Below, piece after piece: positions 553-14,946 of a DNA stretch of 14,946 nucleotides. The DNA comes from Clostridium sp. UBA6758 (lineage in GTDB: Bacteria > Bacillota > Clostridia > Clostridiales > Clostridiaceae), in contig DKGY01000083.1 of NCBI GenBank assembly GCA_002453475.1, positions 6,222 through 21,167 on the forward strand, in the 5' to 3' direction. The notes under the pieces are model-generated. The model was not told the origin of the DNA. It did no database searches and saw only the letters and a list, made by a program, of their open reading frames with translations. A program made the translations under genes and the position numbers. Each line of letters opens with the position of its first letter. Position 1 is the stretch's first letter.

Positions 553-1071
553 TCAATCCCTTTCTCCTATTTTCTTTACGGGAATACCTACATTGATAGA
601 GTATGGTTCTATTATGTTTTTTACCAAACCCATTGCTCCTATTATCGCCCCATCACTAATAATTGAACCCTTTAATATTTTACATCCTGCACCTATCCAA
701 ACATCTCTACCAATATATATTGGTTCTGAGTCTAAAGGCTGTTCTCTAATTAAACTAGAACGAACTATTCCATGATCACTATCAATAATATAACACTGCC
801 CTGCTATGGAAGTATCGCTTCCTATATACATTGGCTTATGTGCAAAAATAATTGTATCCTTACCTATAGCTACATTATCTCCTATTGTTATTTGGCCATC
901 ACCCCATATTTGTACACCAGAATACAATGATACATTATTACCAAAAATTATATTTGGATTATCTAACTGTACTTTTCCATATAAATTAATTAAATTTGAT
1001 GTTTTATATATTTTTTTTATCCTATTAAGCCGTATTTGCCTCATTATTCTATTAGAAATTCTACAAATCAT
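553..1071 (-). CDS. Hexapeptide-repeat (LbH) acyltransferase, last gene of the cluster
   Basis: A 172-residue left-handed beta-helix protein that probably O-acetylates a sugar of the polysaccharide. Hexapeptide repeats start near residue 40 (IIFGNN, ITIGDN, VAIGKD, MYIGSD) and resume at 118-150 (IYIGRDVWIGAGC, then IISDGAIIGA). His100 in DSDHG sits in the loop where these enzymes usually carry the catalytic histidine, and VGIPVKKIG near the end is the usual exit motif. The ATG at 1071 is chosen because AGGAG lies 8 nt upstream; the longer GTG start at 1080 would be only one base from it. The start overlaps the flippase stop by 11 nt, so translation is probably coupled. The acceptor sugar cannot be read from the sequence. 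An acetyl-CoA donor is the family norm but not proven. Confidence 0.85.
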   Translation of the reverse strand: MICRISNRIMRQIRLNRIKKIYKTSNLINLYGKVQLDNPNIIFGNNVSLYSGVQIWGDGQITIGDNVAIGKDTIIFAHKPMYIGSDTSIAGQCYIIDSDHGIVRSSLIREQPLDSEPIYIGRDVWIGAGCKILKGSIISDGAIIGAMGLVKNIIEPYSINVGIPVKKIGERD

Positions 1072-2431
1072 ACCTCTCACTCCTATTTAACAAATTAAAT
1101 CTGTATTTAATATCAAAATATTCTATTATAATATATGGTAACAGAGCTAAAATATTTGAAATAATGATTGATATCCATGTATTAACAATATGAATAAGAA
1201 TAAAAGAGAATAAAATCTTTAATAGCGTTGTTACCGTTAATGCTATAGCTTGAACTTTCAATGTACCTAAACCTGCAATAATACTTGTATCAATACTCAC
1301 TTTCATAAAAAGTATATTATATATTGCAAATATAATGCTATACGGATAATAAACTACAATAGTATTATTTCCTAACCAATATTTTAAGATTATAGGCATT
1401 AATAATATAAGTACAGCCTCACATGGAACTAAAATTAATAGCATTTTGTTTAATTTATTATATAAGCCTTTCACCCATAAGTAATCTTTTTTTACACAAG
1501 CTTCTGTTACTGCAGACCATACTGGTGTTAATGCCAGATTAAAAAAAGTGCTTACTAAAGAAAACAACTTGTTATAAATCTGAAAAGGAACAACTTCTTT
1601 TGGATCTATCAGCCTTGAAATTAAAAATTCGTTTGTACTAAACATAACCATAGTTAAGATCTGCAAATAGAAAAATGTTCCACCAAGCTTTAGAATTCTA
1701 TTAGCATATGATTTTTTAAAATACTTTATACTTGGATTACAATTTTTTAGCTTTGTTGAAAAAAGAATAATAGTAGCAATTAAAAACGGAACATTAGCAG
1801 TAAATACATACGCAATTGATAAAATTTTTATATTATATGTAATATTATTTGTTTTTGCAAATAAAGTAAAAACTAACATAAGAATAGATGAAAGTAAAGT
1901 AAGTAATCCGGATATAGCAGATTTTTGTAATGCATATAGAATTGATGTTACTAATTTTAACCAAAATTGAACTAATATCCCAACAATTAGCATTGTAACC
2001 ATAAATAGCAGGGCATCTCTACTAACAATATCTGATGATATATTTAAAATTTTATTCCAATTTAGTAATGGAATAATTACAACACTGCAAATAGTTAAAA
2101 TTATAACCACAATCCCTACAGAAATATATGCTGAGGAAATATTCTTTTTAATTTCTTCAGTATTATTTTTTACTATAGGTTCTACTAAATGATTTCTAAG
2201 TCCATTACCAATTCCTAAATCAAAAGTCAATATCCACGATAACATAGATATTGCAGTAAACCACATCCCTAATACAGCTTGATCTTGAAAAAAATTCATA
2301 TATGCTGGCATATTTAAAAATGAAACTATTAGTGCCATTCCTTTAATTAAAAATGAAAATACTACATTTTTAACCAATATTATGCTCTTCACATCATAAT
2401 CTTTAACTTTAGTCATTACATTCTTAAACAT
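1061..2431 (-). CDS. Wzx-type polysaccharide repeat-unit flippase
   Basis: A 456-residue, highly hydrophobic protein of the MOP/MATE-like polysaccharide flippase family. Roughly twelve membrane segments are visible, with typical short charged loops. The N-terminus (LVKNVVFSFLIKGMALIVSFLNMPAY) is characteristic of Wzx proteins, and FDLGIGNGLRN near residues 71-81 is the usual conserved loop after the second helix. It should move the undecaprenyl-diphosphate-linked repeat unit to the outer face of the membrane. It starts 7 nt after the preceding acetyltransferase stop and has a weak AGAGGA site about 11 nt from the ATG. It pairs functionally with the EpsG-like polymerase at 4270-5325. Substrate specificity is not predictable. 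Confidence 0.88.
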   Translation of the reverse strand: MFKNVMTKVKDYDVKSIILVKNVVFSFLIKGMALIVSFLNMPAYMNFFQDQAVLGMWFTAISMLSWILTFDLGIGNGLRNHLVEPIVKNNTEEIKKNISSAYISVGIVVIILTICSVVIIPLLNWNKILNISSDIVSRDALLFMVTMLIVGILVQFWLKLVTSILYALQKSAISGLLTLLSSILMLVFTLFAKTNNITYNIKILSIAYVFTANVPFLIATIILFSTKLKNCNPSIKYFKKSYANRILKLGGTFFYLQILTMVMFSTNEFLISRLIDPKEVVPFQIYNKLFSLVSTFFNLALTPVWSAVTEACVKKDYLWVKGLYNKLNKMLLILVPCEAVLILLMPIILKYWLGNNTIVVYYPYSIIFAIYNILFMKVSIDTSIIAGLGTLKVQAIALTVTTLLKILFSFILIHIVNTWISIIISNILALLPYIIIEYFDIKYRFNLLNRSERYDL

Positions 2432-2438
2432 GCAAATT

Positions 2439-3116
2439 TTATTCCTCTGCTTTCATTAATTTTTCGATATCACAAAATAAACTTGAGTTTGTTCTTATCC
2501 AATTTTCATCTCTATTCCACCACTGTATACTAAGTAAATACTTTATTTCATCTTCTTTAAACCTATACTTAATGATCTTTGCAGGTACTCCCCCCACTAT
2601 TGCATATGGTGGAATATCTCTAGTTACTATTGCACCGGCTGTAACAACCGCTCCATCACCTACTTTTATACCATTTATTATTCTTACGTCTTCTCCAACC
2701 CAAACATCATTTCCAATTTCGCATAAAAATTCTTGGCTATCATCTGTAAAATTATATTCTTTAAATGAATTGGAATGTTTAAAAGATAATCCTGAAAATT
2801 TTTTACTAGTATAAAAAATGGGATGTGTTGAAACAAATTTTGATGTAGGATGATTTCCTGCAATAATTCTAACATTAGGCCCTATAGAACAATATCTTCC
2901 TATTTTGGTTTTAGGAAATAAGCATGATGATGAAATATATGTCGCAAAACCTATTGAAGATTGAATTATTGATGTTTTGGAGTATATAATATTCCTACCT
3001 TCAAGTTTTGAAAAATTATCTATATTTGATTTAAAAGAAATAGAGCATTTATATTTTTTGTTTGTTTTATAGATTATAATAAGGTTTTTAACTTTAGCAA
3101 TAATTTTATACAACAT
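2439..3116 (-). CDS. CatB-related (xenobiotic/sugar) O-acetyltransferase
   Basis: A 225-residue left-handed beta-helix acetyltransferase. The segment [20 protein letters not shown] (residues 71-90) and STHPIFY (96-102) is the signature of the CatB/Vat branch, with His89 in the usual catalytic position. The C-terminal half has [13 protein letters not shown] and the family exit motif [14 protein letters not shown]. Other members acetylate antibiotics, but genes inside polysaccharide clusters usually acetylate glycans, which is the inference here. The long insert between residues 103 and 130 is typical of this branch. The ATG lies 2 nt after the preceding glycosyltransferase stop, with GGAG 8 nt upstream, so the two are almost certainly cotranscribed. 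Confidence 0.87.
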
Positions 3117-3118
3117 AA

Positions 3119-4267
3119 TTACATCTCCAAAAGTTTCTTTATATTATAAATAAACTCTTTATCTAATTTTTTTATTAGTGCAATACTATCATATGGATCA
3201 TTTATATCAATTGCCATAATAGAATCTGCTGTAGCTTTAGGGGTTTGTTCTTCATAATAGTAAACTGCATTTCCAATAGCAGACATCTCTATAGCTTTAA
3301 TACGTACTGAAACTACTCTCAATCCGTTAGCCATATAGGATAGTATTTTAGATGGAAATGATGTTTCATTATATGTTCCATCAGGTATTTGTGTACTTAA
3401 GCCAATATCACATTTTTGTAAAAACTCAATATACTCTGTACCTTTTAACAAACCATCATATGTTAATGTCGCATCCGATATTTTTGATACTTGTTCTATT
3501 TTATCTAATAGTAATTTTGTATTTTTACTTGACCCAAAACCAATAATGTGCACATGATAATTTTGGGGAAGATATTCAGCAGCAGCAGCAGCAGCAATCC
3601 CCCCTCCTTTTCTCGGATCAAATGTTCCTGCATAAACAACATGAATTTTATTATCTTCAAATTTAAGTTTTTGCTCCTCTTCAACTTGATATGTACCATA
3701 AATTATTGAATATGGCTTATTTACTATATTTAATTTTTTGTTTAGCAATTCAGTAGGAAATATGTATTTGTCTGCCATCTTAAAAAATTTATATTCATCA
3801 CGTTTTGTTCTTTCCGGAAACTTAATTACATCTTGGTAAATTTCTTCAACTTCTAGTACAAGTTTGAATTTCTTTATTTTTTTAGCTAACATTATAGGTC
3901 TCATAATTATCATAGAATGATAAACTATTACTGATTCATTCTTTTTAGTATTTTGTATTAAATACCAAAATAACCAAATCCATGACCATAATACTCTCAT
4001 ACCTCTTAATAATTTAATTCTTGATCCAAATGTAAGGGAACATGTTAAACTAATATTATTTGATAAGTTCACTTTTCTTTTTGGATAATATCCTTGCTTA
4101 TTATCTGTCCACGATGGAGATATAATTTCAACTTTTCTTCCTGATGATATTATTGCTTTTGCAATATAATCCATCTTATTTGTTGCAGCTAAGCACGAAT
4201 ATCTATTCTCATATTCATATGATTTTGTATCATAAAATCCAACATACTTTATTGTTTGTGTATTCAC
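3119..4267 (-). CDS. Glycosyltransferase, GT4-like (GT-B fold)
   Basis: A 382-residue cytoplasmic glycosyltransferase of GT-B type. The C-terminal nucleotide-sugar half begins at [13 protein letters not shown] (211-223) and ends with the [19 protein letters not shown] region (302-320), which matches the donor-binding helix of this branch; the classical EX7E motif is not obvious. The N-terminal half is less conserved, with a hydrophobic patch near 92-104 ([11 protein letters not shown]) that may contact the membrane. I take the GTG at 4267 as start because AGGAG lies 8 nt upstream and it begins 2 nt after the polymerase stop; a TTG reading 18 nt earlier is possible but has no site. Residues 225-230 are six alanines encoded by six identical GCT codons. 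Sugar donor and linkage are unknown. Confidence 0.85.
3578..3595 (-). repeat. Six-copy trinucleotide repeat (GCT on the coding strand)
   Basis: Six uninterrupted AGC units on the plus strand (GCT on the coding strand) lie within the glycosyltransferase gene and encode Ala225-Ala230. Copy-number change would alter the alanine run without shifting frame. Confidence 0.9.
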
Positions 4268-4269
4268 TA

Positions 4270-5325
4270 TTACCACTCCTGCCAAAAAAACTTAAATCCA
4301 CTGAAACTTCCTGTCTTAAAAAAATATGCAATTAATGCCATAAAAACAAAAATATATATTATTATCTTTATTCTCTTATCCTTCTCTGCATTAATAGCTT
4401 TAGGAATCAAAACTATACAAAATATACTAAAATACATACTGATTCTAAAAAATTCTGCAATAACAGCTGAAAACACTTGAAATACCATTCCTAAAAATAA
4501 TAAATTGTATAAAATTAAATTCTTACTGTCACATTTTACAATACCATTTTTAAAATATAAACAAAATAAATAAATAAATAGTTGGATTATAAATCCTGAA
4601 ATTGTCAATGTTGTTCCATGCTCAAGATAGTATGTATATTTATCATTTATATTTAAATTACTTAATAATCCTATTATTTGTGGCCTAAACAAATAAGCTG
4701 CTACTAATGCAGCTAAAACACCAATAACTTGTTTCCATCCAATTCTCATTTTACTTAAAGGATAAGCTACTAAAAATATGATTGCCGAAAAGTGAAATAA
4801 TGACCCGAAGAGAATTATTATTATAAATGGAAATAGCCTTCTTTCGATTAAATACTTATATGAAAATAGTATTATTGATAAAGCAAGTGTCTGTCTTAAT
4901 CCAGAAAGACTGAAATAAAAATAACCAAGAGAGATAAGTGCAACAACACTTATATAAGCCTCGTCTGAATATTTATATATAAATTTTGAAATAGAATAAC
5001 AAAAGAATCCAGCTATTATAGCCAACCATATTCGATAACTTGCTCCAAATAAGCTAATTACTTTATTAAATACATAAAAAAATGGATCTTTTCCAGTATT
5101 AGTAATAAAATTTATCCATAGATCGTATAAATTTGTATAAGATATAGAAATATATTTATTAACATATACCTCTACATCTGTAGTAAAGTATATACTTCTG
5201 AATGCAGATATTAAGAATAAAAATAATCCAGAAATTATAACGAATAATTTTCTGCTATTTTTTTTATTTAATAATATTAGTTTTATTAAACCCAAAAATG
5301 TTATACAACTAATTAATAAAAGCAC
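4270..5325 (-). CDS. EpsG-like oligosaccharide polymerase (Wzy role)
   Basis: A 351-residue integral membrane protein with about ten hydrophobic segments, in the style of the EpsG/Wzy polymerase group. Recognisable points are the first-loop segment RSIYFTTDVEVYVNKY (residues 43-58), which resembles the conserved R-x(n)-D-x-xxY loop of EpsG proteins, and SLSGLRQTLALSIILFSYKYL (a block near residues 139-159) with the typical LRQ motif. It should join flipped repeat units outside the membrane. The start is GTG, supported by AGGAG 8 nt upstream. It lies 11 nt after the preceding glycosyltransferase and 2 nt before the next gene. It is the only polymerase candidate in the window, so assignment by context is strong even though Wzy sequences diverge widely. 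Confidence 0.85.
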   Translation of the reverse strand: MLLLISCITFLGLIKLILLNKKNSRKLFVIISGLFLFLISAFRSIYFTTDVEVYVNKYISISYTNLYDLWINFITNTGKDPFFYVFNKVISLFGASYRIWLAIIAGFFCYSISKFIYKYSDEAYISVVALISLGYFYFSLSGLRQTLALSIILFSYKYLIERRLFPFIIIILFGSLFHFSAIIFLVAYPLSKMRIGWKQVIGVLAALVAAYLFRPQIIGLLSNLNINDKYTYYLEHGTTLTISGFIIQLFIYLFCLYFKNGIVKCDSKNLILYNLLFLGMVFQVFSAVIAEFFRISMYFSIFCIVLIPKAINAEKDKRIKIIIYIFVFMALIAYFFKTGSFSGFKFFWQEW

Positions 5326-5336
5326 TTATATATCTC

Positions 5337-6542
5337 CTAACTTGCTATAATTTTTTTATATAATTCAACATAATCATGTAATCTATCTTCCATATTAAAA
5401 TTATTCTTAGCATATTCAATACAATATTCGCTATAATATTTCTTACCAATATTCTTTATATAAAGTATGTATTCTAATATTTTACTCATACTATCTTTAT
5501 CCACAATATAACCACATCTATCGCCTACCAACTCTGGATTAGCAGTAGAATTTATTACAACTACGGGTGTTCCGCAGGCTAAGGCTTCAGCAGTTACTTT
5601 TCCAAAGGATTCTTCTAATGAAAGATTAACAAATACATCTGCCATAGAATAATATTCTACTAACTCATCAATGTTATGAGTCTCTTTTATATTAATTATA
5701 TTTTTAGGTAAAGATACTTTCTTATCGATATTTCCAACTAATATAATTGCCATATCTTTTGATAATGCCTTTGATAATTCTATAAACTTGTGTAATCCCT
5801 TATTATTACTCCAACTACTTGCAACACCTAGAATTATGAATTTATTTTCTAAATTTAATTTATCCCTTAACATTTCTGTCTTAGCTGGTTTAAAAACATC
5901 TAAATCAATCCAATTATAAATTCTGGTCAATATTTTAGCAGATGAAAGATATGAATTTCTTGCTTCATTTGTTATCCAATCAGATACTCCAGTAATAGCC
6001 AATCTTGGGATTCTTTTAAACCATTCTTTTTTATTATTGTACATTTTCCTTGTACAGTCAAAAAACCAACTTGAATTATCCTTTTTTAATCTAGGGCAAT
6101 TTCCACAGCTATTTTGCCATTTATAACATTCATCAATTGTATAATGTGTGCATTTTCCAGTATAAAACCAACAATCATGTAAAGTTACTACAGTAGCAAT
6201 ATCTTTTTGAGCAAGATATTCAAGTAATAGTTTTAAGTTAATATAATTTCCATGAAGATTTCCTAAATGTACTACATCTGGTTTAAGATTTTCAATATAA
6301 TTTAATAGTTTTTTTGTACTTACCATAGAAAAGTATCCTTGAAGACCAAAAACTCGTGAAAAAAGCCCGTGAAGTTTTATCTGAATATATGTACCTATTT
6401 TATAACCTTTTTTATATGTAGGCCCACCAGAATACGCAATATAGCCTTCATTTCCATTTTTATTTAGATAATCTGCTAGTTCAGTACAAGCTCTTCCTGT
6501 GCTTTTTATTCCATTTACAGCATTAATTTGTAATACTCTCAT
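5337..6542 (-). CDS. GT4 family glycosyltransferase, WcaC-like
   Basis: A 401-residue GT-B enzyme. The N-terminus VLQINAVNGIKSTGR places the glycine-rich loop of the acceptor domain, and VVHLGNLHGNY plus TLHDCWFYTGKC (residues 90-131) are typical of the WcaC-like branch found in colanic-acid-type clusters. Five cysteines (124, 131, 139, 146, 149) form a cluster in HDCWFYTGKC and CGNCP, a known feature of this branch. The EX7E motif is seen as E311...E319 (ESFGKVTAE). It probably transfers a hexose from a nucleotide sugar; the donor is not assignable. The ATG at 6542 is preferred, with GAGGAA about 9 nt upstream; a longer ATG reading at 6560 overlaps this site. It is preceded by 135 nt of AT-rich non-coding sequence. 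Confidence 0.88.
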   Translation of the reverse strand: MRVLQINAVNGIKSTGRACTELADYLNKNGNEGYIAYSGGPTYKKGYKIGTYIQIKLHGLFSRVFGLQGYFSMVSTKKLLNYIENLKPDVVHLGNLHGNYINLKLLLEYLAQKDIATVVTLHDCWFYTGKCTHYTIDECYKWQNSCGNCPRLKKDNSSWFFDCTRKMYNNKKEWFKRIPRLAITGVSDWITNEARNSYLSSAKILTRIYNWIDLDVFKPAKTEMLRDKLNLENKFIILGVASSWSNNKGLHKFIELSKALSKDMAIILVGNIDKKVSLPKNIINIKETHNIDELVEYYSMADVFVNLSLEESFGKVTAEALACGTPVVVINSTANPELVGDRCGYIVDKDSMSKILEYILYIKNIGKKYYSEYCIEYAKNNFNMEDRLHDYVELYKKIIAS

Positions 6543-6677
6543 ATTTATATTTCCTCGCATAATAATATATTTATAAATGAATATTCTATTTATTTCATAT
6601 TAATAAACCATCAAAACTATATTAAAATCAACGGCTATATATTGTGTAACATAAATTAATTTATCCCTTAATGTGAT

Positions 6678-7256
6678 TTAATTATTACATGTTTCAATAA
6701 TATTATTGAAATCTTCATATAATAATTTTTGTAAATCTTCCTTATGATGATTAACTTTTCCACATTCCCATGACTTTTGTGCATAATTCTTAATTATATT
6801 TGGATTATCTATTATGTTTTTAATCTTTTCCTTTATTTCTTTTTCATTTACTGCTATAATAGCAGCATCATTTTTTATCAAATAATCTATAGAATTTGCT
6901 TTACTCCAACCTACAGCAAATATACACTTTCCATTTTGAAAATAGTCTACCAACTTAGTAGAAAATGAAAGTCTTGTTTGTAACTTATATTTTAATTCAA
7001 ACGACTCTACATGGACAACAACATCAGCTTTTTGTTGAATCTCTGGTATCCTGCTTGGTAAAACAGAACCCATAAATCTAACCTCATCGCCAATATTTAA
7101 CTTCTTCTTCATTTTACTTGTCAATCTATTTGCACTATATATATATAATCTCGCTTTGATTTTCTCATTGCTAAGCTCATGAATTATCTCACCTATTTTA
7201 GCAATAATTTTCCATCTCCCATTACCTATATTCCCCGTATAAACAAAATTTATCAC
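6678..7256 (-). CDS. C-terminal half of a split glycosyltransferase
   Basis: A 192-residue reading frame that corresponds only to the nucleotide-sugar-binding half of a GT-B glycosyltransferase. It opens with INFVYTGNIGNGRW, the usual start of the second Rossmann domain, and carries SFSTKLVDYFQNGKCIFAVG (residues ~97-116), matching the donor-site helix. The acceptor-binding half is on the adjacent upstream ORF. The GTG at 7256 overlaps the upstream TGA (GTGA), but no ribosome binding site precedes it. The same frame stays open upstream to 7316 and reads a plausible linker ending KRDGV. I therefore infer one gene broken by a frameshift rather than an independent protein, although a two-subunit enzyme with coupled translation remains possible. 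Confidence 0.7.
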   Translation of the reverse strand: MINFVYTGNIGNGRWKIIAKIGEIIHELSNEKIKARLYIYSANRLTSKMKKKLNIGDEVRFMGSVLPSRIPEIQQKADVVVHVESFELKYKLQTRLSFSTKLVDYFQNGKCIFAVGWSKANSIDYLIKNDAAIIAVNEKEIKEKIKNIIDNPNIIKNYAQKSWECGKVNHHKEDLQKLLYEDFNNIIETCNN

Positions 7257-7993
7257 GCCATCACGTTTAGAATATATTGCATTCCATTTGTAATGCTCAT
7301 ACCTTTTCTTAGTATTTTAAACTTGTCACCAAATTCTTTTTTAAACTCTGATATTTGAACATCACTCATACAATAACAAATATCTGCCATTTTAATACTA
7401 CGTCTAATTTTACTTCTTAATATAAATCTATTAATCCAATACAACCCAGATAAAGAAAATTGCTTTAATGAATACATATCATCTCCAGTAAAAAGTATTA
7501 TCTTGGCATTTGTTACTGATTTTGCATAATATAATATGTTGTGCATATAAAAGCAATCATGTATGGGCATATATATAATTTGCGGATTAAAATCCTTTAA
7601 AAAACTGTATAGTTTATTATTTTTCCATTTACCAATACTCCACAATATCTCTCTTGCCCACACCAAAATATATATTCTATAGTTTCTAAAAAAATCATAT
7701 AGTTTCTTTTCTTTAGCTATAGTTTTGATATTATTTTGACATTCATTCTTTACTAACTTATTATAAGAAGCTATATACCCTACATCTTTATTATTTAGAA
7801 TATTTCTAATCAACTCATTTTCTGTAATTCTGTAATACTTATCACATATTTGATTATTGGGTAATTCTGCTCTGCAAAATAGATTTGCAATACAATTCTT
7901 ATCCCAATTAGAAAAAAAATTTGAAGCTGTATTTCCTGTACTATTGCCATTATTCCATGCATTTCTCGTTATAACTAAAATCCTTTTATTCAT
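7253..7993 (-). CDS. N-terminal half of a split glycosyltransferase
   Basis: A 246-residue reading frame covering the acceptor domain of a GT-B glycosyltransferase, normally about 420 residues in one chain. ILVITRNAWNNGNSTGNTASN (a block over residues 5-25) holds the N-terminal strand and the glycine/serine-rich loop, QIIYMPIHDC (138-147) the internal strand, and ADICYCMSDVQISEFKKEFG (203-222) with KILRKG (226-231) the end of the domain. After KILRKG the expected linker to the donor domain is replaced by about 15 unrelated residues and a TGA. The ATG at 7993 is chosen because AAGGAG lies 5 nt upstream; the ATG at 8008 lies before that site. A frameshift to the downstream ORF is the simplest explanation. 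Specificity unknown. Confidence 0.7.
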   Translation of the reverse strand: MNKRILVITRNAWNNGNSTGNTASNFFSNWDKNCIANLFCRAELPNNQICDKYYRITENELIRNILNNKDVGYIASYNKLVKNECQNNIKTIAKEKKLYDFFRNYRIYILVWAREILWSIGKWKNNKLYSFLKDFNPQIIYMPIHDCFYMHNILYYAKSVTNAKIILFTGDDMYSLKQFSLSGLYWINRFILRSKIRRSIKMADICYCMSDVQISEFKKEFGDKFKILRKGMSITNGMQYILNVMA

Positions 7994-8105
7994 TATTTCT
8001 CCTTTCATATTGTATTAATAATTTATTCTAGAAGAAAAATGACTTAATAAACCTCTCTTAATAATATAAAAATCTAAATAAAATTAGAGAGAGCAATCTT
8101 CGCTA

Positions 8106-9443
8106 CTAGTCACTTAAATGTCTGCTAATTTCCTTAAGCATTTTTTCTTTATCTATTTTACAAATCTCAAGATATTTCTTAATTTTATCTTTTACAACTG
8201 ATTCATTTACAACTAAGTTATCAAATTTATCAAGTACATTTTCTGCATCAATATTTGCAATATCAACAGTGTATTCACTAAATCCCATATCAGACATAAT
8301 TCCTGATGTTTTATGACCAGAATATGAAATAGCAATTGCAGGCACTAATGATGTCATCGCAAAAATAACAGAATGAAATCTAGTACCTATTATATAATCC
8401 ATCTCTGAATAGAATTTTGTTATGTCAAAGCAATTCATTTCAACCTCATTTACATAAGAATAACTCTCTTTTGATACTCTTTTGTTTTTTAGTTGTTTTA
8501 TTACATCTTCAATGGCAATTCTATCATCTTCGTGAGTACTTGGCCCTAATGTATGTGCAACAAAGATTGGATGATATCCTTTATTAATTAAACCTTCTGT
8601 AACTTTGCACATTTCTTCTATATATGACTTATATTTTACTTCTACATTATTACTCTCTGGAAATCTATAAGGTCTCATTGTTATGGCTACTTTTTTCACT
8701 GAACTGTACGTACTTATAAAATTTCTCATCTCATACTTTTTATAATTTTGTATATAAAAACCTAAATCAGTTGATAAAATAACTTTATTTTCTACAATGC
8801 CTGACAAATATTTTCTAGATATTGACTCTCTAGCATAAATTAAGTCACACTTTTTAAGCACTTTTTTTATAATACTTTTTTCAACTCTTCCCATAAAAGG
8901 TCCAAAGGAGTTTGGCATAATGATTATTTTCTTTCCAAGTTGTTTTGCAAGCAATATATTATAAAGACTGTAGTATAAGTAATATAAATCCGATATTCTC
9001 TTATATGTATGTAAAAATCCTCCACCTTTTACAATCATTAAGTCCATTGTTTTAAAATCTTCATATGTTTTTTTTTGTTCTGTATCCAATAAACTTATTC
9101 CAATTCTTTTTAGAAAAGATACTTTAGATATTAATAAAGCGCTTTTAAACATATCTGTTAATGCAGTGGTACCCCAAGATAATTTCGTGAATACTGTATA
9201 ACCAATGTTTTTCTTTTCTTTCCCCCTTGCAGGGTGTAAAAGAATTGGTTTTATAACATCAAACCCCATTTGTCTACTTTGCCTAGATTGGTTATATATA
9301 TCCTTGCCATTATTACCACATTGCAATAATTTATATTCAGCTTCTACTCCAACCTCTTTAACCATATCTCTTATCAGCCATATTAATGCTTGATCTCCAC
9401 GATTTAGATCTGTAATACCAGGAGTAATCAAAATTTTTTTCAT
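8106..9443 (-). CDS. Polysaccharide pyruvyl transferase family protein
   Basis: A 445-residue protein of the polysaccharide pyruvyl transferase family (CsaB/PssM type), which uses phosphoenolpyruvate to add pyruvate ketals to sugars. Visible signatures are the N-terminal GITDLNRGDQAL (residues 9-20), the IVKGGGFLH strand-loop (137-145), and the conserved block IIGTRFHSVIFAM...PAIAISYSGHKTSGIM (351-383). It would put a negative charge on the repeat unit. The start is the ATG at 9443, which overlaps the upstream stop as ATGA and has AGGAAGG just before it; a TTG at 9467 is upstream of that site. The stop is followed by 112 nt of AT-rich non-coding sequence. Some members of the family are not pyruvyl transferases, so the exact reaction is likely but not certain. 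Confidence 0.87.
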   Translation of the reverse strand: MKKILITPGITDLNRGDQALIWLIRDMVKEVGVEAEYKLLQCGNNGKDIYNQSRQSRQMGFDVIKPILLHPARGKEKKNIGYTVFTKLSWGTTALTDMFKSALLISKVSFLKRIGISLLDTEQKKTYEDFKTMDLMIVKGGGFLHTYKRISDLYYLYYSLYNILLAKQLGKKIIIMPNSFGPFMGRVEKSIIKKVLKKCDLIYARESISRKYLSGIVENKVILSTDLGFYIQNYKKYEMRNFISTYSSVKKVAITMRPYRFPESNNVEVKYKSYIEEMCKVTEGLINKGYHPIFVAHTLGPSTHEDDRIAIEDVIKQLKNKRVSKESYSYVNEVEMNCFDITKFYSEMDYIIGTRFHSVIFAMTSLVPAIAISYSGHKTSGIMSDMGFSEYTVDIANIDAENVLDKFDNLVVNESVVKDKIKKYLEICKIDKEKMLKEISRHLSD

Positions 9444-10573
9444 AAGATCTTCCTTCCTATTGCACAATCTTTGTATATAATTTGCATCTTTTCTTCAACT
9501 GAATTTTTATCATATTTTTTAACCGCTTTAATATTAAAGTTGCTCATTTCCTTGCGAACTTTAGTATTGCTAATTAATTTCTGAATATTCTTGTTAAATC
9601 CCTCAACATCATCAGTCCTAACCAAATATCCACCCTTACCATCCTCAATCAAATCTGTATTTCCTCTTATTTTAGAGCAAACAGCAGGTAATCCAGCAGC
9701 CATAGCTTCCATCAAAGCTACTGGTAAACCTTCTTGCAAAGAAGGAAAAACAAACACATCAACAGCCATAGATATTTCTGAAATATCTTTTCTAAACCCT
9801 AAAAATTTAACATTAATATTAAGTTCTTTAGCTTTATTTTTTAAATATTTATCTAAATCACCCTGTCCACAAATAATATAAATAATATTAGGGTTATTTA
9901 TTTTAGCCAAAGCCTTAATAACAACTTCATGATTTTTTCTTTTACTTAACTCTCCAACAGATAGTAAAGCAATTTGATTTTCAAGTATGCCTAACTCTTT
10001 TCGCTTTTTACTTTTATCCACGATCAATCCACAAAACTTTTTAGTGTCTACTCCAACACCTGGAACATAAACTACCTTATTTGCTTTAAACTTTTGTGCT
10101 ATACCATAATCTTCTTTATTTATAGTTATAAGCGTGTCAGTATACCTAGCACAATATTTTTCAATTGGATAGAATAACATCCAATTTTTAATAGGCGCTC
10201 CCTTAAAAAAATGAAAACCGTGAGCAGTATATATAACCTTTGTACCTTTTTTACGTGTATCCTTAGCTGCCAATCTAGTTAATACTCCACCCACAGGTGT
10301 ATGACAATGAATAATATCATATTCATTAGAATCTATAATTTTCTTTAATTGTTTATACGCAGTTATATTATTTGAATTAAAAGGTGAACGTTCGAACGGT
10401 AAATTATAATACTTATCACAATATGGTATAATACAATCCTCTTTATTTTCATAGTCATTTTTTGCACAAACATGTGTTTCATATCCATTCTCTTTAAACC
10501 ACTTTATATATGGAATATGAAATGACATGAAATGATGTTTTACTACATGAGCTACAAACAATACTTTTTTCAT
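9440..10573 (-). CDS. GT4 family glycosyltransferase (EpsD/CapM-like)
   Basis: A 377-residue GT-B enzyme with both domains intact. N-terminal features are KVLFVAHVVKHH (residues 3-14) and IIHCHTPVGGVLTRLA (87-102), with TAHGFHFFKG (116-125) typical of the EpsD/CapM branch. The donor domain begins near 202 (LLSVGELSKRKNH) and has the EX7E motif as E281...E289 (EGLPVALME). Enzymes of this branch often act early, adding the second sugar after the initiating transferase; here the gene is close to that transferase, which supports but does not prove it. The ATG at 10573 is taken as start since GGAG lies 8 nt upstream; the GTG at 10579 is only 2 nt from it. The gene begins 2 nt after the SDR stop and overlaps the next gene by ATGA. 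Confidence 0.9.
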   Translation of the reverse strand: MKKVLFVAHVVKHHFMSFHIPYIKWFKENGYETHVCAKNDYENKEDCIIPYCDKYYNLPFERSPFNSNNITAYKQLKKIIDSNEYDIIHCHTPVGGVLTRLAAKDTRKKGTKVIYTAHGFHFFKGAPIKNWMLFYPIEKYCARYTDTLITINKEDYGIAQKFKANKVVYVPGVGVDTKKFCGLIVDKSKKRKELGILENQIALLSVGELSKRKNHEVVIKALAKINNPNIIYIICGQGDLDKYLKNKAKELNINVKFLGFRKDISEISMAVDVFVFPSLQEGLPVALMEAMAAGLPAVCSKIRGNTDLIEDGKGGYLVRTDDVEGFNKNIQKLISNTKVRKEMSNFNIKAVKKYDKNSVEEKMQIIYKDCAIGRKIL

Positions 10574-10575
10574 AA

Positions 10576-11418
10576 TCACTTCTCCGTTAATCTAATAGTT
10601 TTCTTTAAATCATAAATACAATACTTATTTTTGTATCCCGACACATTTTTCTCATAAATTAAGTCCCCAAACACCTTATTAACTGTACTAAACTTTAGTA
10701 ACCTTAATAAAGGATTAAACAGCCTAGTCATATATATTTTCTTTCCGTGCACTTCAGCAATAGTTTTAACCATTTCTGAAGTACAAACATATTCTTCATT
10801 TTGTGGGAAAAATAGTCCTGTACTTTCTTCATCAATAATAAATTTAACAAATTCACATAAATTATCTATATAAATCATACTTCTCCTATTTTCCATATCA
10901 GGAAAAATAGGTGATTTCAATGCGAACTTCTCTAACCTAGTATAATTACCTTTACACCCTTTACCGTATATCATAGGTGGACGAAGAACTGATATTTTAA
11001 AGTTAGGTTCTTCCAAAGTAGTTATTAATTCTTCACCTTGAAGTTTAGACTTTCCATAATTACTTTTTGGTAAAGGAACAGTATTCTTACTTATAACACC
11101 TTTTTCCATCCCATAAACACTCATAGAACTTAAGAGTATAAAATGCTTAATCCCATCACTCTTTGCTTTCTCAGCAACTTCATATGCTAAATCACGATTT
11201 ACTTTATAATAAAGCTCTGTATTTTCCTTTGTTTCTTTTATATGTGCAATCCCTGCCACATGAAACACTACATCATACCCTGAAAAGCTTTTTTCTTTCC
11301 AAGTACCATCTATCATATCAACACTATCAACTAAATAATCTTCCTGCCACTTCTTTAGCCATTTTTCAAAACTAGTACCTATGTAACTATTAGCACCTGT
11401 TATAAGTATTTTCTTCAT
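10576..11418 (-). CDS. NAD(P)-dependent sugar-nucleotide epimerase/dehydratase or 4-ketoreductase (extended SDR)
   Basis: A 280-residue extended SDR. The dinucleotide loop is TGANSYIG (residues 7-14), the NVAG-equivalent is HVAGIAH (53-59), the catalytic region is LLSSMSVYG (95-103), and the YxxxK pair is Tyr121/Lys125 (YGKSK). It is shorter than GalE (about 330 residues) and has a diverged substrate-binding C-terminus, so it is not assigned as GalE. SDRs of this size next to an initiating phosphoglycosyl transferase are often UDP-4-keto-6-deoxy-HexNAc reductases or epimerases that make its donor, which is the inference here. The ATG at 11418 is chosen because AGAAGG lies about 9-11 nt upstream; a GTG at 11430 overlaps that site. 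It ends 2 nt before the next gene. Confidence 0.85.
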   Translation of the reverse strand: MKKILITGANSYIGTSFEKWLKKWQEDYLVDSVDMIDGTWKEKSFSGYDVVFHVAGIAHIKETKENTELYYKVNRDLAYEVAEKAKSDGIKHFILLSSMSVYGMEKGVISKNTVPLPKSNYGKSKLQGEELITTLEEPNFKISVLRPPMIYGKGCKGNYTRLEKFALKSPIFPDMENRRSMIYIDNLCEFVKFIIDEESTGLFFPQNEEYVCTSEMVKTIAEVHGKKIYMTRLFNPLLRLLKFSTVNKVFGDLIYEKNVSGYKNKYCIYDLKKTIRLTEK

Positions 11419-11465
11419 CCAGCTAATCACCTTCTTCTATTCACTCCAACAATACTTTCAACCAA

Positions 11466-12104
11466 TCAAACCGACACCGAATCTCTCTCCACTTCTACTT
11501 CTTTCTCCTTCACTACTTCCTTAACTCCACCTTCTAAGACCCCATCTCTCTTTAGTACAGAAACAACAGTTCCAAAGAAACATTTAGCATCCATCTTTAC
11601 TCCCAAATTTTCAACATAATCTCCATCATATCTTGCCTTGTCTTCAATGGCTACTGTATCTCTTCCATTAATTTGTGCCCATCCAGTGAGACCAGGTCGT
11701 ATATCATTAGCTCCATACTTGTCCCTTTCTGCTATTAAATCATATTGATTCCATAGAGCAGGTCTTGGTCCAACTATTGCCATGGAGCCAGCTATTATAT
11801 TCAAAATTTGTGGCAATTCATCTAAACTAGTCTTTCTTAAGAATTTACCAACTTTAGTTATATACTGCTGTGGATTTTTAAGGAGATGAGTTGGCATGTC
11901 CTTAGGTGTATCTATTCTCATAGTACGAAACTTCAATATATTAAAATGTGTTTTATTAATTCCAACTCTTCTTTGTTTAAAGAAAACCGGGCCTTTAGAG
12001 TTAAGTTTTATAGCTATAATAATTATCAAAAATAATGGCGATAGTAAAATTAATCCTATAAGTGCAAGTATAAAGTCAAATAATCTTTTTACTTTTAAAT
12101 ACAT
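11466..12104 (-). CDS. Initiating phosphoglycosyl transferase (PglC/EpsL-type sugar transferase)
   Basis: A 212-residue monotopic phosphoglycosyl transferase that transfers a sugar phosphate from a UDP-sugar to undecaprenyl phosphate, starting the repeat unit. It has one re-entrant hydrophobic segment (residues ~8-33, with the SPLF turn), then KGPVFFKQRRVG (37-48), LKFRTM (57-62), the catalytic Asp-Glu pair D95/E96 in SLDELPQ, and VGPRPAL with RPGLTGWAQINGRD (136-149). It lacks the long N-terminal membrane domain of WcaJ, so it is the short PglC-like form. After about residue 192 the tail becomes a low-complexity Val/Glu/Lys stretch not seen in the core family. GGGGGAG lies about 5 nt before the ATG. 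Bacillosamine, QuiNAc, Gal or GalNAc phosphate are all possible donors. Confidence 0.93.
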   Translation of the reverse strand: MYLKVKRLFDFILALIGLILLSPLFLIIIIAIKLNSKGPVFFKQRRVGINKTHFNILKFRTMRIDTPKDMPTHLLKNPQQYITKVGKFLRKTSLDELPQILNIIAGSMAIVGPRPALWNQYDLIAERDKYGANDIRPGLTGWAQINGRDTVAIEDKARYDGDYVENLGVKMDAKCFFGTVVSVLKRDGVLEGGVKEVVKEKEVEVERDSVSV

Positions 12105-12149: not shown

Positions 12150-12677
12150 TCATCCCTTTAAGCTATTATATTCTATAACCTGACCACTATTAATCTTTAA
12201 TAAAGGAGCAATACTGCAATAAGATTTAATCACTGCTCCACAGTCCACATGGCATCCATAACCAATGATAGCATCATGGTCAATAATGGTTCCGATGCTT
12301 ATAATACAGCCCTTTCCAATCTTTGTGTTTGTATTTACAACTGCTTTAGCTTCTATTACTGAACTTGAATAAACTATAGCTGATGGACTAATATATGCTG
12401 TGGGATGAATTAAAGTTGGAATTTGAAATTTATTCTTCTCAAGTTTTTCAATCCACTCCATACGAAGTTTGTTATTCCCAAAGGCTGATATTGCATAGGT
12501 GTATTTTTCTATAAATTTTTCATTATCTGAACACTTTCCTATAGCTTCATTAGAATTATCATCTAAAAAGTCTATTTTATGAAATATCCCCATAGCTTCT
12601 GCAACTTCCTTAACTACATGACCATGGCCGCCAGCTCCTAGAATTATTAGATTTTTATTTGAGTTATGATTTGCCAT
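12150..12677 (-). CDS. NeuD/PglD-like sugar O- or N-acyltransferase
   Basis: A 175-residue acyltransferase with an N-terminal Rossmann-like domain (LIILGAGGHGHVVKEVA, residues 10-26) that binds the UDP-sugar, and a C-terminal left-handed beta-helix (IGKGCIISIGTIIDHDAIIGYGCHV, within residues 120-144). His134 in IIDHDA is at the catalytic position of PglD/NeuD enzymes. It is shorter than PglD (about 200 residues): the helix ends early with LLKINSGQVIEY, as in some Firmicute members, so a full C-terminal cap may be missing. It is the first gene after the riboswitch leader. AGGGGG lies 7 nt before the ATG. Together with the SDR and phosphoglycosyl transferase it could make and load an acylated amino sugar; that link is inference. 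Confidence 0.87.
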   Translation of the reverse strand: MANHNSNKNLIILGAGGHGHVVKEVAEAMGIFHKIDFLDDNSNEAIGKCSDNEKFIEKYTYAISAFGNNKLRMEWIEKLEKNKFQIPTLIHPTAYISPSAIVYSSSVIEAKAVVNTNTKIGKGCIISIGTIIDHDAIIGYGCHVDCGAVIKSYCSIAPLLKINSGQVIEYNSLKG

Positions 12678-12844
12678 ATAATAACCCCCTAATACTTTAT
12701 CCTTTATATTTCCCTCTTAATTAAGACTGCCCACCGATTCTTAATTTTTATAAAACCAGATAAAAATAACCCACCACTATCTTTTACATAACTCACTTAC
12801 CACAAATTTCCCCTTCAAATTTATAGTTACCCCGAATTAATAAG
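12678..12844 (-). promoter_or_regulatory. Riboswitch-to-gene leader, candidate expression platform
   Basis: Between the riboswitch and the acyltransferase start lie 167 non-coding nt. A hairpin pairs 12719-12726 with 12739-12746 (AATTAAGA/TCTTAATT, 12-nt loop), but no T-run follows it, so it is not a standard terminator. On the transcript, ATAAAGG (12707-12701) repeats exactly the 5' strand of riboswitch helix P1, and the overlapping GATAAAG (12701-12695) also matches the P1 3' strand. Both could compete for that strand just upstream of the AGGGGG site at 12690-12685. The repeats are seen; a switching role is inference. Confidence 0.4.
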
Positions 12845-12920
12845 ATAAAGGTGGGTTGCGCTACTAACTCCATGTAGTCCAAGCGCCCAAGTACAGACTA
12901 CATTTCATAATTCCCTTTAT
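12845..12920 (-). ncRNA. Cyclic-di-GMP-II riboswitch
   Basis: The transcript carries the class II core GAGTTAGTAGCGCAACC (12870-12854) preceded by TTGGGCGCTTG, closely matching the clostridial consensus as I remember it. The secondary structure fits: P1 ATAAAGG/CCTTTAT (12914-12920 with 12845-12851, 7 bp); a helix ATGTAGTC/GACTACAT (12896-12903 with 12872-12879, 8 bp) where the known C. difficile example has different bases but the same pairing; and GGGCGC pairing with GCGC-AA-CCC (12883-12888 with 12853-12861), keeping the two unpaired adenines that contact the ligand in solved structures. It binds the bacterial second messenger c-di-GMP. A TATAAA 22 nt upstream (12948-12943) could be a -10 box, but no good -35 is seen, so it may instead be read through from upstream. 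Confidence 0.9.
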
Positions 12921-12955
12921 AATTAAGTTATTTATGTCGAATTTTATATTACCCC

Positions 12956-13114
12956 TATCGGCTATAAACAGATTTCTTAGCTTCTTTGAAGCTTAGAAAT
13001 CGTTATCCAGAGACGTAGCAGCTCTTTACTCCCACTTCGAAGAAGAAGGGAGTTTAGAGCTGGTAGTCATCGGATTAAAAGTACCCCCAATTCCCAACTT
13101 TTACATAACCGATA
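12956..13114 (-). ncRNA. Large structured element of unknown class upstream of the riboswitch
   Basis: A 159-nt region closed by TATCGG/CCGATA (13114-13109 with 12961-12956). Inside are two arms. Arm A pairs ATCC/GGAT (13072-13075 with 13005-13008), GAC/GTC (13066-13068 with 13012-13014), AGCTCT/AGAGCT and ACTCCC/GGGAGT (13048-13061 with 13020-13033), separated by small symmetric internal loops such as AA/AA. Arm B is a 14-bp stem with one mismatch at 12971-13001. Regular helices with symmetric internal loops suggest a conserved RNA, or a palindromic MITE-like repeat. I cannot name a class. Confidence 0.5.
12971..13001 (-). terminator. Long hairpin, possible terminator of the regulatory module
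   Basis: Two 14-nt arms (12971-12984 and 12988-13001) pair with one mismatch around a 3-nt loop. On the transcript the stem is followed by TGTTTAT, a weak U-rich tail. It lies 145 nt after the phosphatase stop. It could end part of the transcript, or simply be one arm of the larger element. Confidence 0.3.
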
Positions 13115-13145
13115 CACCCAGTTTAAATTTTTTTATACTTTAAAT

Positions 13146-13916
13146 TTATCTTTTAAATAAGCTCATAATTCCATGTTGTTTTTTAATTTTCTCACCTTGA
13201 TAGTTCACCCTATTATTCTTTAAAATTTCCTGAGAAATGTTGTCCATTTCCCTTTCATATCCAGGTTTTATTTTCTCTATAGCTCTTATTCCTAAGGTCA
13301 TATCTGTAGTTCTAACATCTGCTCTATGAGCATCGGAACCTATAACACTATATATTTTATGCTTTACAAATAACTCTGCAGTTTTTTTAACACTTCTTCC
13401 AAAGTCTCCTGCTATGCTACCTGTATTAAGTTGAAATAAAAACCCCTCTTCAATAAACTTATTTATTAATTCCGGGGCTTCTATAAAAGTTTTATATCGC
13501 TCTGGATGAGCAATGATAGGTACAATCCCCTTTAGTTGAAGTTCATAGACATCATTTATTACTTCATCCACAGAAAATCCCCTTAAAGGAAATTCTATTA
13601 ACATATATCTACTGTTTTCAATGGTAGATATATCACCACTTTGAAAACTTTCTAGAATTCTATTAGTATAGTAAACCTCTTGACCACAATAAATTTCTAT
13701 ATTTATACCATTTTTTTTAGCTAAGTTTTTTAATTTTGTTACTTCCTTTTGTATTTCCTCATAAGGTATTTGAAACCTACCCCTGAAAAAATGTGGAGTG
13801 GCAACAATTCCTCTTGTTCCTGAACTCTCAGCTAATTTAAGCATGTCTACAGTCATATCTTCATCTTTAGATCCATCATCCACTCCATGAAGTATATGGC
13901 TATGAAAATCTATCAT
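13146..13916 (-). CDS. PHP-family protein-tyrosine phosphatase (CpsB/YwqE-type)
   Basis: A 256-residue metal-dependent phosphatase of the PHP superfamily that dephosphorylates the partner tyrosine kinase. The metal-binding motifs are all visible: FHSH (His5, His7) followed by HGVDDGS, TPHFF (His42), the GQEVYY strand (Glu80), IIAHPERY (His137) and GSDAHR (Asp195, His197). Length and order match CpsB/YwqE. It lies 36 nt after the kinase gene, the usual arrangement. The ATG at 13916 is preferred: GGAGG is 7 nt upstream, whereas the GTG at 13922 falls directly against that site. It is the last gene before the 468-nt non-coding leader. Confidence 0.93.
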   Translation of the reverse strand: MIDFHSHILHGVDDGSKDEDMTVDMLKLAESSGTRGIVATPHFFRGRFQIPYEEIQKEVTKLKNLAKKNGINIEIYCGQEVYYTNRILESFQSGDISTIENSRYMLIEFPLRGFSVDEVINDVYELQLKGIVPIIAHPERYKTFIEAPELINKFIEEGFLFQLNTGSIAGDFGRSVKKTAELFVKHKIYSVIGSDAHRADVRTTDMTLGIRAIEKIKPGYEREMDNISQEILKNNRVNYQGEKIKKQHGIMSLFKR

Positions 13917-13952
13917 AAGCACTCCTCCAACCTTTAAGTGAAATTTTATATA

Positions 13953-14606
13953 TTATTTATCACCATAATAGTAATAATAGCTATTTCTTTTAGTGTCTAC
14001 TCCATTTAATATGGTACCAATGATATTTGCATTAACCTTTTTCAAAAGATTTACAGAGTTTACAACAGAATCTTTTTTTGTTTTCTCAGCTCTTATCACA
14101 AGTAATGTTCCATCTGCTCTAGTGGAAAGGATTTGTGCATCAGTAACGGCTTGTACTGGTGGAGTATCTAATATTACATAGTCAAAAACCTTTTTTAAAG
14201 CATCAATTAGAGCCTTCATAGACTTTGAACCTAGCATCTCTGATGGGTTAGGTGGAATCTTTCCTGATGTTAATATAGTAAGATTATTATTATATCTATG
14301 TCCTACTACAGAAATGCTTTCTTTTCCAACTATTACATCAGAAAGTCCTGCAGTATTAGATATTTCAAATTTTTTATGTAATGATGGCTTTCTTAAGTCA
14401 CAATCAATGAGTACCACCTTTTTATCGCTTTGAGCTATAGATAGAGCTAAGTTTCCTGCTGTAGTACTTTTCCCTTCTCCCGGCTCTGCACTAGTTACTA
14501 CTATTACTTTATATTCCTCATCAAAGGATGAATATTGTAAATTTGTCCTTAGAGTTCTATAACTTTCTGCAGCTATAGACTTAGGGTCTTTTTCTACTAT
14601 AAACAT
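13953..14606 (-). CDS. BY-type tyrosine-protein kinase (CapB/YwqD-type)
   Basis: A 217-residue cytoplasmic bacterial tyrosine kinase. Walker A is AEPGEGKST (residues 40-48, Lys46), Walker A' is VVLIDCDLRKP (64-74), and Walker B is VILDTPP (144-150). The N-terminal ESYRTLRTNL (14-23) is the oligomerisation motif of the family. The C-terminus has a five-tyrosine autophosphorylation cluster (Tyr210-Tyr214). It needs the C-terminal cytoplasmic part of the adjacent CapA/Wzz-like membrane protein for activity, and is switched off by the PHP phosphatase encoded next. AAGGAGAG lies about 5-7 nt before the ATG. The kinase and membrane domain are on separate genes, as is usual in Firmicutes. Confidence 0.95.
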   Translation of the reverse strand: MFIVEKDPKSIAAESYRTLRTNLQYSSFDEEYKVIVVTSAEPGEGKSTTAGNLALSIAQSDKKVVLIDCDLRKPSLHKKFEISNTAGLSDVIVGKESISVVGHRYNNNLTILTSGKIPPNPSEMLGSKSMKALIDALKKVFDYVILDTPPVQAVTDAQILSTRADGTLLVIRAEKTKKDSVVNSVNLLKKVNANIIGTILNGVDTKRNSYYYYYGDK

Positions 14607-14656: not shown

Positions 14657-14946
14657 CTACTGCTCAGTGTTAGGTATAGTTCCTATAACAGGAATTTCTA
14701 ATTCTTTTTCTAATTGTTCTCTATTCTTATATGTGTTGTCTAAAAACTCTAATAAGAAGCTTATTCCAACGCTCACCATTAATCCAAGCAGAAAAGCTAT
14801 AGCTATATTCATTTTTTTATTAGGGCTCACTGGTATTTCTGGAACCTTTACGGATTCTATAACTTTTATATTCCCATTTGGCACTAAAACCTTAGATGTA
14901 GTTACAAACTCATTAGTTATTGCTTGTACCATAGTTGCTGCCATAT
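14657..14946 (-). CDS. Wzz/CapA-type chain-length and kinase-activator protein, C-terminal part only
   Basis: The frame is open at the right window edge, so the ATG at 14944 is probably internal and the N-terminal membrane segment and most of the extracellular domain lie outside. The visible 95 residues contain the end of the extracellular domain, the proline-rich stretch VPEIPVSPNKK (34-44), the second membrane helix (about residues 46-65, IAIAFLLGLMVSVGISFLL), and the cytoplasmic tail FLDNTYKNREQLEKELEIPVIGTIP, which is the part that activates the tyrosine kinase in CapA/YwqC proteins. It sets polysaccharide chain length together with the kinase encoded 50 nt downstream. Confidence 0.9.
   Translation of the reverse strand, partial: MAATMVQAITNEFVTTSKVLVPNGNIKVIESVKVPEIPVSPNKKMNIAIAFLLGLMVSVGISFLLEFLDNTYKNREQLEKELEIPVIGTIPNTEQ

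Follow-up and report, generated by a model that had tools for sequence, protein, structure and literature searches.

A predicted ON-type c-di-GMP-II riboswitch between the regulatory and assembly genes of a Clostridium exopolysaccharide operon

In many bacteria, c-di-GMP raises exopolysaccharide production through the action of proteins. An RNA element in a 14,946-nt stretch of DNA from Clostridium sp. UBA6758 (contig DKGY01000083.1; this whole stretch is called the window below) raises the question of whether c-di-GMP could also reach such an operon directly through RNA. The initial annotation had placed a c-di-GMP-II riboswitch in this operon after a kinase/phosphatase module and immediately ahead of the assembly genes, and this siting was borne out by Pfam and TIGR matches to the genes on either side. 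The operon genes are all on the minus strand, in the order CapA fragment, CapB, CpsB, riboswitch, acetyltransferase, priming sugar transferase, and remaining assembly genes, as follows.

14657..14944, minus strand: C-terminal part of a CapA/Wzz-type chain-length determinant, its frame running to the window end (PF13807 GNVR, E 4.6e-09)
13953..14606, minus strand: CapB-type tyrosine autokinase gene (TIGR01007, E 9.7e-65, above cut-off)
13146..13922, minus strand: gene for a CpsB/CapC-type tyrosine phosphatase, preceding the switch (PF19567, E 2.7e-60)
12150..12677, minus strand: PglD/NeuD-type acetyltransferase, the first gene downstream of the switch (PF17836, E 9.1e-17)
11466..12104, minus strand: priming sugar transferase (PF02397, E 4.8e-61)
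556..11430, minus strand: epimerase-family protein, glycosyltransferases, pyruvyltransferase, EpsG-like protein, acyltransferases and flippase-like protein (Pfam)

The acetyltransferase also matched TIGR03570 with an E value of 1.5e-34, which is under that model's cut-off, and the Pfam score of the flippase-like gene within 556..11430 was likewise under cut-off. Two frames on the minus strand, 8008-7253 and 7256-6678, overlap by 4 nt. Pfam assigns a glycosyltransferase domain to the second and nothing to the first, and a single glycosyltransferase may be split between them. A short minus-strand frame at 242-27 also had no Pfam match. It resembles a nucleotide-sugar epimerase at its C-terminal end and is possibly a gene fragment.

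When the whole window was searched with cmscan, RF01786 (c-di-GMP-II) was the sole family to match at gathering score, and one lower-scoring clan relative was dropped by the program in its favor. The match lies at 12924-12841 on the minus strand, enclosing the interval 12845-12920 that had originally been assigned to this class, and it spans model positions 1-84 of 84. Its score of 72.6 bits is well over the gathering score of 53.5, with an E value of 4.8e-15, or 2.1e-16 when 651 bases were taken as the search space. One scan of the genome collection found two close relatives of the window's phosphatase, at 81% in Clostridium sulfidigenes 113A and at 79% in Clostridium sp. UBA1056, and in both of these genomes an aptamer is found directly after cpsB, scoring 69.9 bits at the C. 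sulfidigenes locus (L001) and 68.2 bits at the UBA1056 locus (L002). The parts of the aptamer are as follows.

12841..12924, minus strand: c-di-GMP-II aptamer with its 5' end at 12924 (RF01786 score; pair counts over 22 aptamers)
12883..12886, minus strand: 5' strand of the pseudoknot, model positions 39-42, GCGC (pair counts over 22 aptamers)
12858..12861, minus strand: 3' strand of the pseudoknot, model positions 64-67, GCGC (pair counts over 22 aptamers; conservation over 98)

Pairing was counted in a gapless alignment of 22 aptamers that included the window's own. The Rfam helices together with the pseudoknot 39-42/64-67 were paired in 87.1% of cells, compared to a mean of 69.7% for shuffled controls, none of which reached 87.1% in 500 trials, and 35.6-44.2% for slid controls. 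The pseudoknot itself was paired in 100% of cells, with two-sided changes in 3 of its 4 pairs, and the window carries GCGC/GCGC where most aptamers carry GCAC/GUGC. A model built on the 22 aptamers was then matched to 98 aptamers in 90 sources, one of the 98 being cut at its 5' end. At positions conserved in 90% or more of these, the window deviates solely at 24/51 and 41/65, and pairing is kept at both; the G-C pair at 41/65 occurs in only 2 of the 98, the window and its orthologue. The compensatory base changes noted in the initial annotation are therefore real. The conserved core, the pseudoknot and a score above the threshold of RF01786 were all found in the window RNA, which on this evidence is a well-supported, if predicted, further member of a known riboswitch class, and we infer that c-di-GMP is its ligand.

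One pair bears on whether that ligand is the right one. The 12/72 pair at the base of P1 is A/G in 70 of the 98 aptamers, G/G in 10, A/U in 6, G/C in 5 and other combinations in 7. G12/C72 is the form in both the window and the L001 orthologue, which counts against our reading. Position 72 is G in 82 of the 98 aptamers, and this G lies near the ligand in the crystal structure. A departure from the commonest A12/G72 could signal a variant aptamer that recognizes another cyclic dinucleotide or binds with altered affinity, but three of the five G12/C72 aptamers belong to loci other than the window's, the A12/U72 form recurs as well, and the variant model c-di-GMP-II-GAG fits the orthologue L001 much more poorly than RF01786 does, at 41.2 bits versus 69.9. 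We set aside altered ligand specificity through G12/C72 given the recurrence of this pair, consider a variant aptamer of either kind highly improbable, and note that the pair looks like natural variation when judged across the alignment.

How would such an aptamer control the genes that follow it? The minimum free energy (MFE) fold of 12930-12660 does not retain the aptamer intact. Instead, P1 is dissolved and the 3' strand of the aptamer pairs with 12783-12768, after which comes AUUUUUAU. Taken as a whole, however, this region gained only moderate stability over shuffled versions of itself (z -1.96, with 6 of 200 as good), which counts against the reading. The elements of this putative terminator are as follows.

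12842..12857, minus strand: 5' arm of the terminator, AACCCACCUUUAUCUU (inverted repeat I3; shuffle test; MFE fold)
12768..12783, minus strand: 3' arm of the terminator, AAGAUAGUGGUGGGUU (MFE fold; inverted repeat; shuffle test; orthologues)
12760..12767, minus strand: U tract following the stem, AUUUUUAU (sequence; shuffle test)

The 5' arm overlaps both the conserved CAACC of the aptamer and the 3' strand of P1. We applied a test in which the 5' arm was forced to lie inside the aptamer and a U-rich tail was required, with dinucleotide shuffles as the control. The window gave a hairpin of 15 pairs with one mismatch, which was matched by none of 300 shuffles. The 3' arm is conserved in both orthologues save for a few pairs; among the 33 pairs predicted jointly in both, 1 shows two-sided changes and 4 are broken in one sequence each. 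Such a hairpin was present in all 11 loci that lie in or near a cpsB context, the window included, and shuffles as good numbered 0 of 300 in eight of these, 3 in L105, 3 in L111 and 10 in L108. Over the 98 aptamers, 85 passed the test, with no more than 5 of 100 shuffles as good, and 13 failed, suggesting that an aptamer-overlapping terminator is the usual, but not universal, design for c-di-GMP-II. Two features of the window's hairpin count against it as a terminator: its apical part is long, with 58 nt between the arms, and its U tract is interrupted. A stock terminator scan, which admits loops of 3-8 only, also found none in the stretch. Downstream of the terminator, at 12744-12721 on the minus strand, is a second hairpin, UUAAGA...UCUUAA, which is present in both orthologues. 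The downstream loop GGUGGGC, at approximately 12732, was considered as a second anti-aptamer and ruled out by eye as it is not conserved in L002.

The terminator and the aptamer are mutually exclusive, so ligand binding should allow transcription, and an ON switch is predicted, a direction that refines the earlier claim, which had given none. At low c-di-GMP, strand 12857-12842 would pair with 12783-12768 and polymerase would terminate at the U tract, approximately 80-90 nt short of where the first assembly gene starts. At high c-di-GMP, 12857-12842 would be held by the aptamer as part of P1 and of the ligand site. This would block the terminator and allow transcription of the acetyltransferase, priming sugar transferase and downstream assembly genes. 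In the portions of two reports on C. difficile that were available to us (PMC6366702, PMC6200980), the class II c-di-GMP switches are ON and the class I switches are OFF. The class I precedent is the one point we can cite for an OFF or a translational switch in the window, for which nothing specific was found. The terminator uses the aptamer's own 3' strand, which argues against both, and translational control is not favored because the likely ribosome site (GGGGG, 12689-12685) lies approximately 70-80 nt past the end of the terminator. Either arrangement is very unlikely. We consider it very probable that the element is an ON-type transcriptional c-di-GMP-II riboswitch controlling the assembly genes, with its direction in the cell and its effect on the glycan inferred. 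The proposal that c-di-GMP sets the expression of the assembly genes is thus supported by computation as the likely role.

We determined whether this arrangement recurs. The orthologous UBA1056 locus conserves the order CapB, CpsB, aptamer, PglD, sugar transferase, epimerase, glycosyltransferase. The C. sulfidigenes 113A locus (L001 6898-8306) does not, as no assembly gene lies near its switch, which is a point against our reading; the next long frame after that switch, a GGDEF/Spo0E-like gene with a GGDEF domain, runs in the opposite direction. In the family of genome G001, the aptamer was detected in 112 of 206 genomes (over cut-off in 102) and cpsB in 160 of 206 (E up to 1e-20). The aptamer was directly downstream of cpsB and on the same strand in at least 9 of the 206 (G001, G002, G010, G011, G012, G015, G021, G057 and G101), as counted by comparing coordinates by eye among the listed matches, which for PF19567 reached down to approximately 2e-52; 65 of the 112 aptamer genomes (40 plus 25) were searched a second time for this. 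Left out of this count were G092, in which the aptamer is approximately 1.1 kb downstream on the same strand, and G079, in which it is on the opposite strand. The chance expectation for this siting is approximately 0.02 under a rough uniform model with 290 aptamers that treats related genomes as independent. When G092 was added to the nine, a sugar transferase was the next or next-but-one same-strand gene in 8 of the 10 genomes, identified by Pfam at L105, L107, L110 and L112 and by similarity to that of the window at L002, L106, L108 and L109. At L111, LuxR-type response regulators lie downstream of the switch instead, which again counts against our reading. A recurrent switch heading assembly genes would make the link between c-di-GMP and matrix sugars directly testable in Clostridium.

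The leader between cpsB and the aptamer differs between the window and its orthologues. Relative to both of them, the window has 110 nt extra at 13073-12964, as follows.

12964..13073, minus strand: copy of a dispersed repeat within the leader, separate from the switch (absent from both orthologues; genome matches)

Matches to this repeat, many of which are partial, numbered 47 in G001 and 44 in G002, and five genus mates had none. The copies (window 13073-12964 on the minus strand; L016-L045) are palindrome-rich and approximately 110 nt long, some lying head to tail. Most are intergenic: at 29 of 30 repeat loci, a few of which share a tandem copy, no long frame overlaps the copy that was examined. 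In the two-hairpin fold of 17 copies, 3 of 32 pairs had two-sided changes and the covariation term was weak; the repeat is strongly conserved outside the stems as well. The leader fold is highly stable (z -5.03, with 0 of 200 shuffles as good), and this strength is largely that of the repeat. A search of 12600-13250 at E up to 5 gave no credible match to EAR or to any other Rfam RNA, either for the repeat or for the strongly folded leader as a whole, and plasmid and phage searches gave no match to the repeat. An IS200/IS605-like origin for it was unsupported: Y1 transposases numbered 0 in G002 and 2 in G001, and neither of the G001 loci matches the repeat at any length. One G001 gene for a Y1-type transposase (L154) has GGGGTCTGACCCC-type palindromes on both flanks, unlike the window's repeat. 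The repeat lies inside a leader hairpin between cpsB and the aptamer, with arms at 13113-13105 and 12965-12957 on the minus strand, which by eye is apparently common to L001 and L002, with changed pairs.

An insertion of this kind could have broken the leader and left a decaying or non-functional switch that no longer controls the operon, and the L001 switch, with no assembly gene downstream, could be viewed in the same way. We find this quite unlikely. The aptamer and terminator of the window are intact, its aptamer scores higher than those of both orthologues, the repeat stops 39 nt short of the aptamer, and the scan for loops of 3-8 placed no terminator in the stretch.

Whether transcription reaches the switch from the genes upstream or starts at the switch itself was examined by promoter scanning. 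Between cpsB and the aptamer, the window has a single promoter-like match (9/12), at 12968-12941, which overlaps the repeat insert. Over both strands of the stretch there were 6 matches, compared to 3.3 +- 2.0 in shuffles, placing the window match at chance level, and no sense-strand match was found before the aptamer of L002. Different results were obtained for L105, L106, L108, L109 and L110, where TTAACA, a 17-nt spacer and TATAAT or TACAAT lie immediately upstream of the aptamer. The L105 promoter, found by the scan, matched at 11/12 with a TG before the -10 box and ends one base ahead of the aptamer; the other four were read by eye. These five relatives, along with the 9/12 match, are the case for the same ON switch having its own promoter in the window, the assembly genes then forming a separate c-di-GMP-controlled unit. 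With that match no better than chance and L002 without one, we regard such a promoter as a possible but unlikely explanation here. The switch is probably read by polymerase arriving from capA-capB-cpsB because no convincing promoter was seen after cpsB, and we lean toward the window's switch being a mid-operon attenuator, or gate, fed from these genes. The chain-length, kinase and phosphatase genes would be made regardless, and the assembly genes alone would depend on c-di-GMP. Such wiring would illustrate how biosynthetic genes can be gated in an operon whose kinase/phosphatase module stays on.

The original suggestion that c-di-GMP controls assembly independently of the regulatory proteins consequently stands in half: it better fits the relatives with a promoter before the aptamer, but in the window and L002, with the lone 9/12 match in the former and none on the sense strand in the latter, transcription may arrive from the regulatory genes themselves. 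The recurring placement thus likely comes with two wirings: some relatives would have the assembly genes as a separate unit, and the clade of the window perhaps has a mid-operon gate. We suggest only tentatively the broader proposal that Clostridia have placed a c-di-GMP ON switch more than once between the CapA-CapB-CpsB module and the priming transferase, and that in the clade of the window it acts as such a gate, the module always being made. If so, c-di-GMP would act on exopolysaccharide in Clostridium by a direct RNA route.

EAR RNA is found inside the Bacillus eps exopolysaccharide operon, after the kinase module, where it promotes processive antitermination; to our knowledge it has no ligand. 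The parallel with EAR that had been drawn for the window held for position, which the two elements share, but did not extend to the RNA itself, as EAR gave no Rfam match in the window at gathering score and none in 12600-13250 at E up to 5. If the broader proposal is right, the window element would be a ligand-sensing positional counterpart of EAR. Among RF01786 riboswitches, it resembles the others in its full-length match, helices, pseudoknot and terminator overlap (85 of 98) and differs in its siting, after cpsB inside an exopolysaccharide operon; the apical part of its terminator is also long, whereas most of the c-di-GMP-II terminators listed are short. Among the open-licence titles and abstracts listed, none described a c-di-GMP-II switch within an exopolysaccharide operon of Clostridium, and an earlier description elsewhere is possible. 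Among the closest known systems are the class II switches of C. difficile, for example Cdi-2-4, which precedes pilA1; these switches, in the available portions of PMC6366702 and PMC6200980 are likewise turned ON by antitermination, but control pili and surface adhesins, whereas the window's switch lies in a polysaccharide operon.
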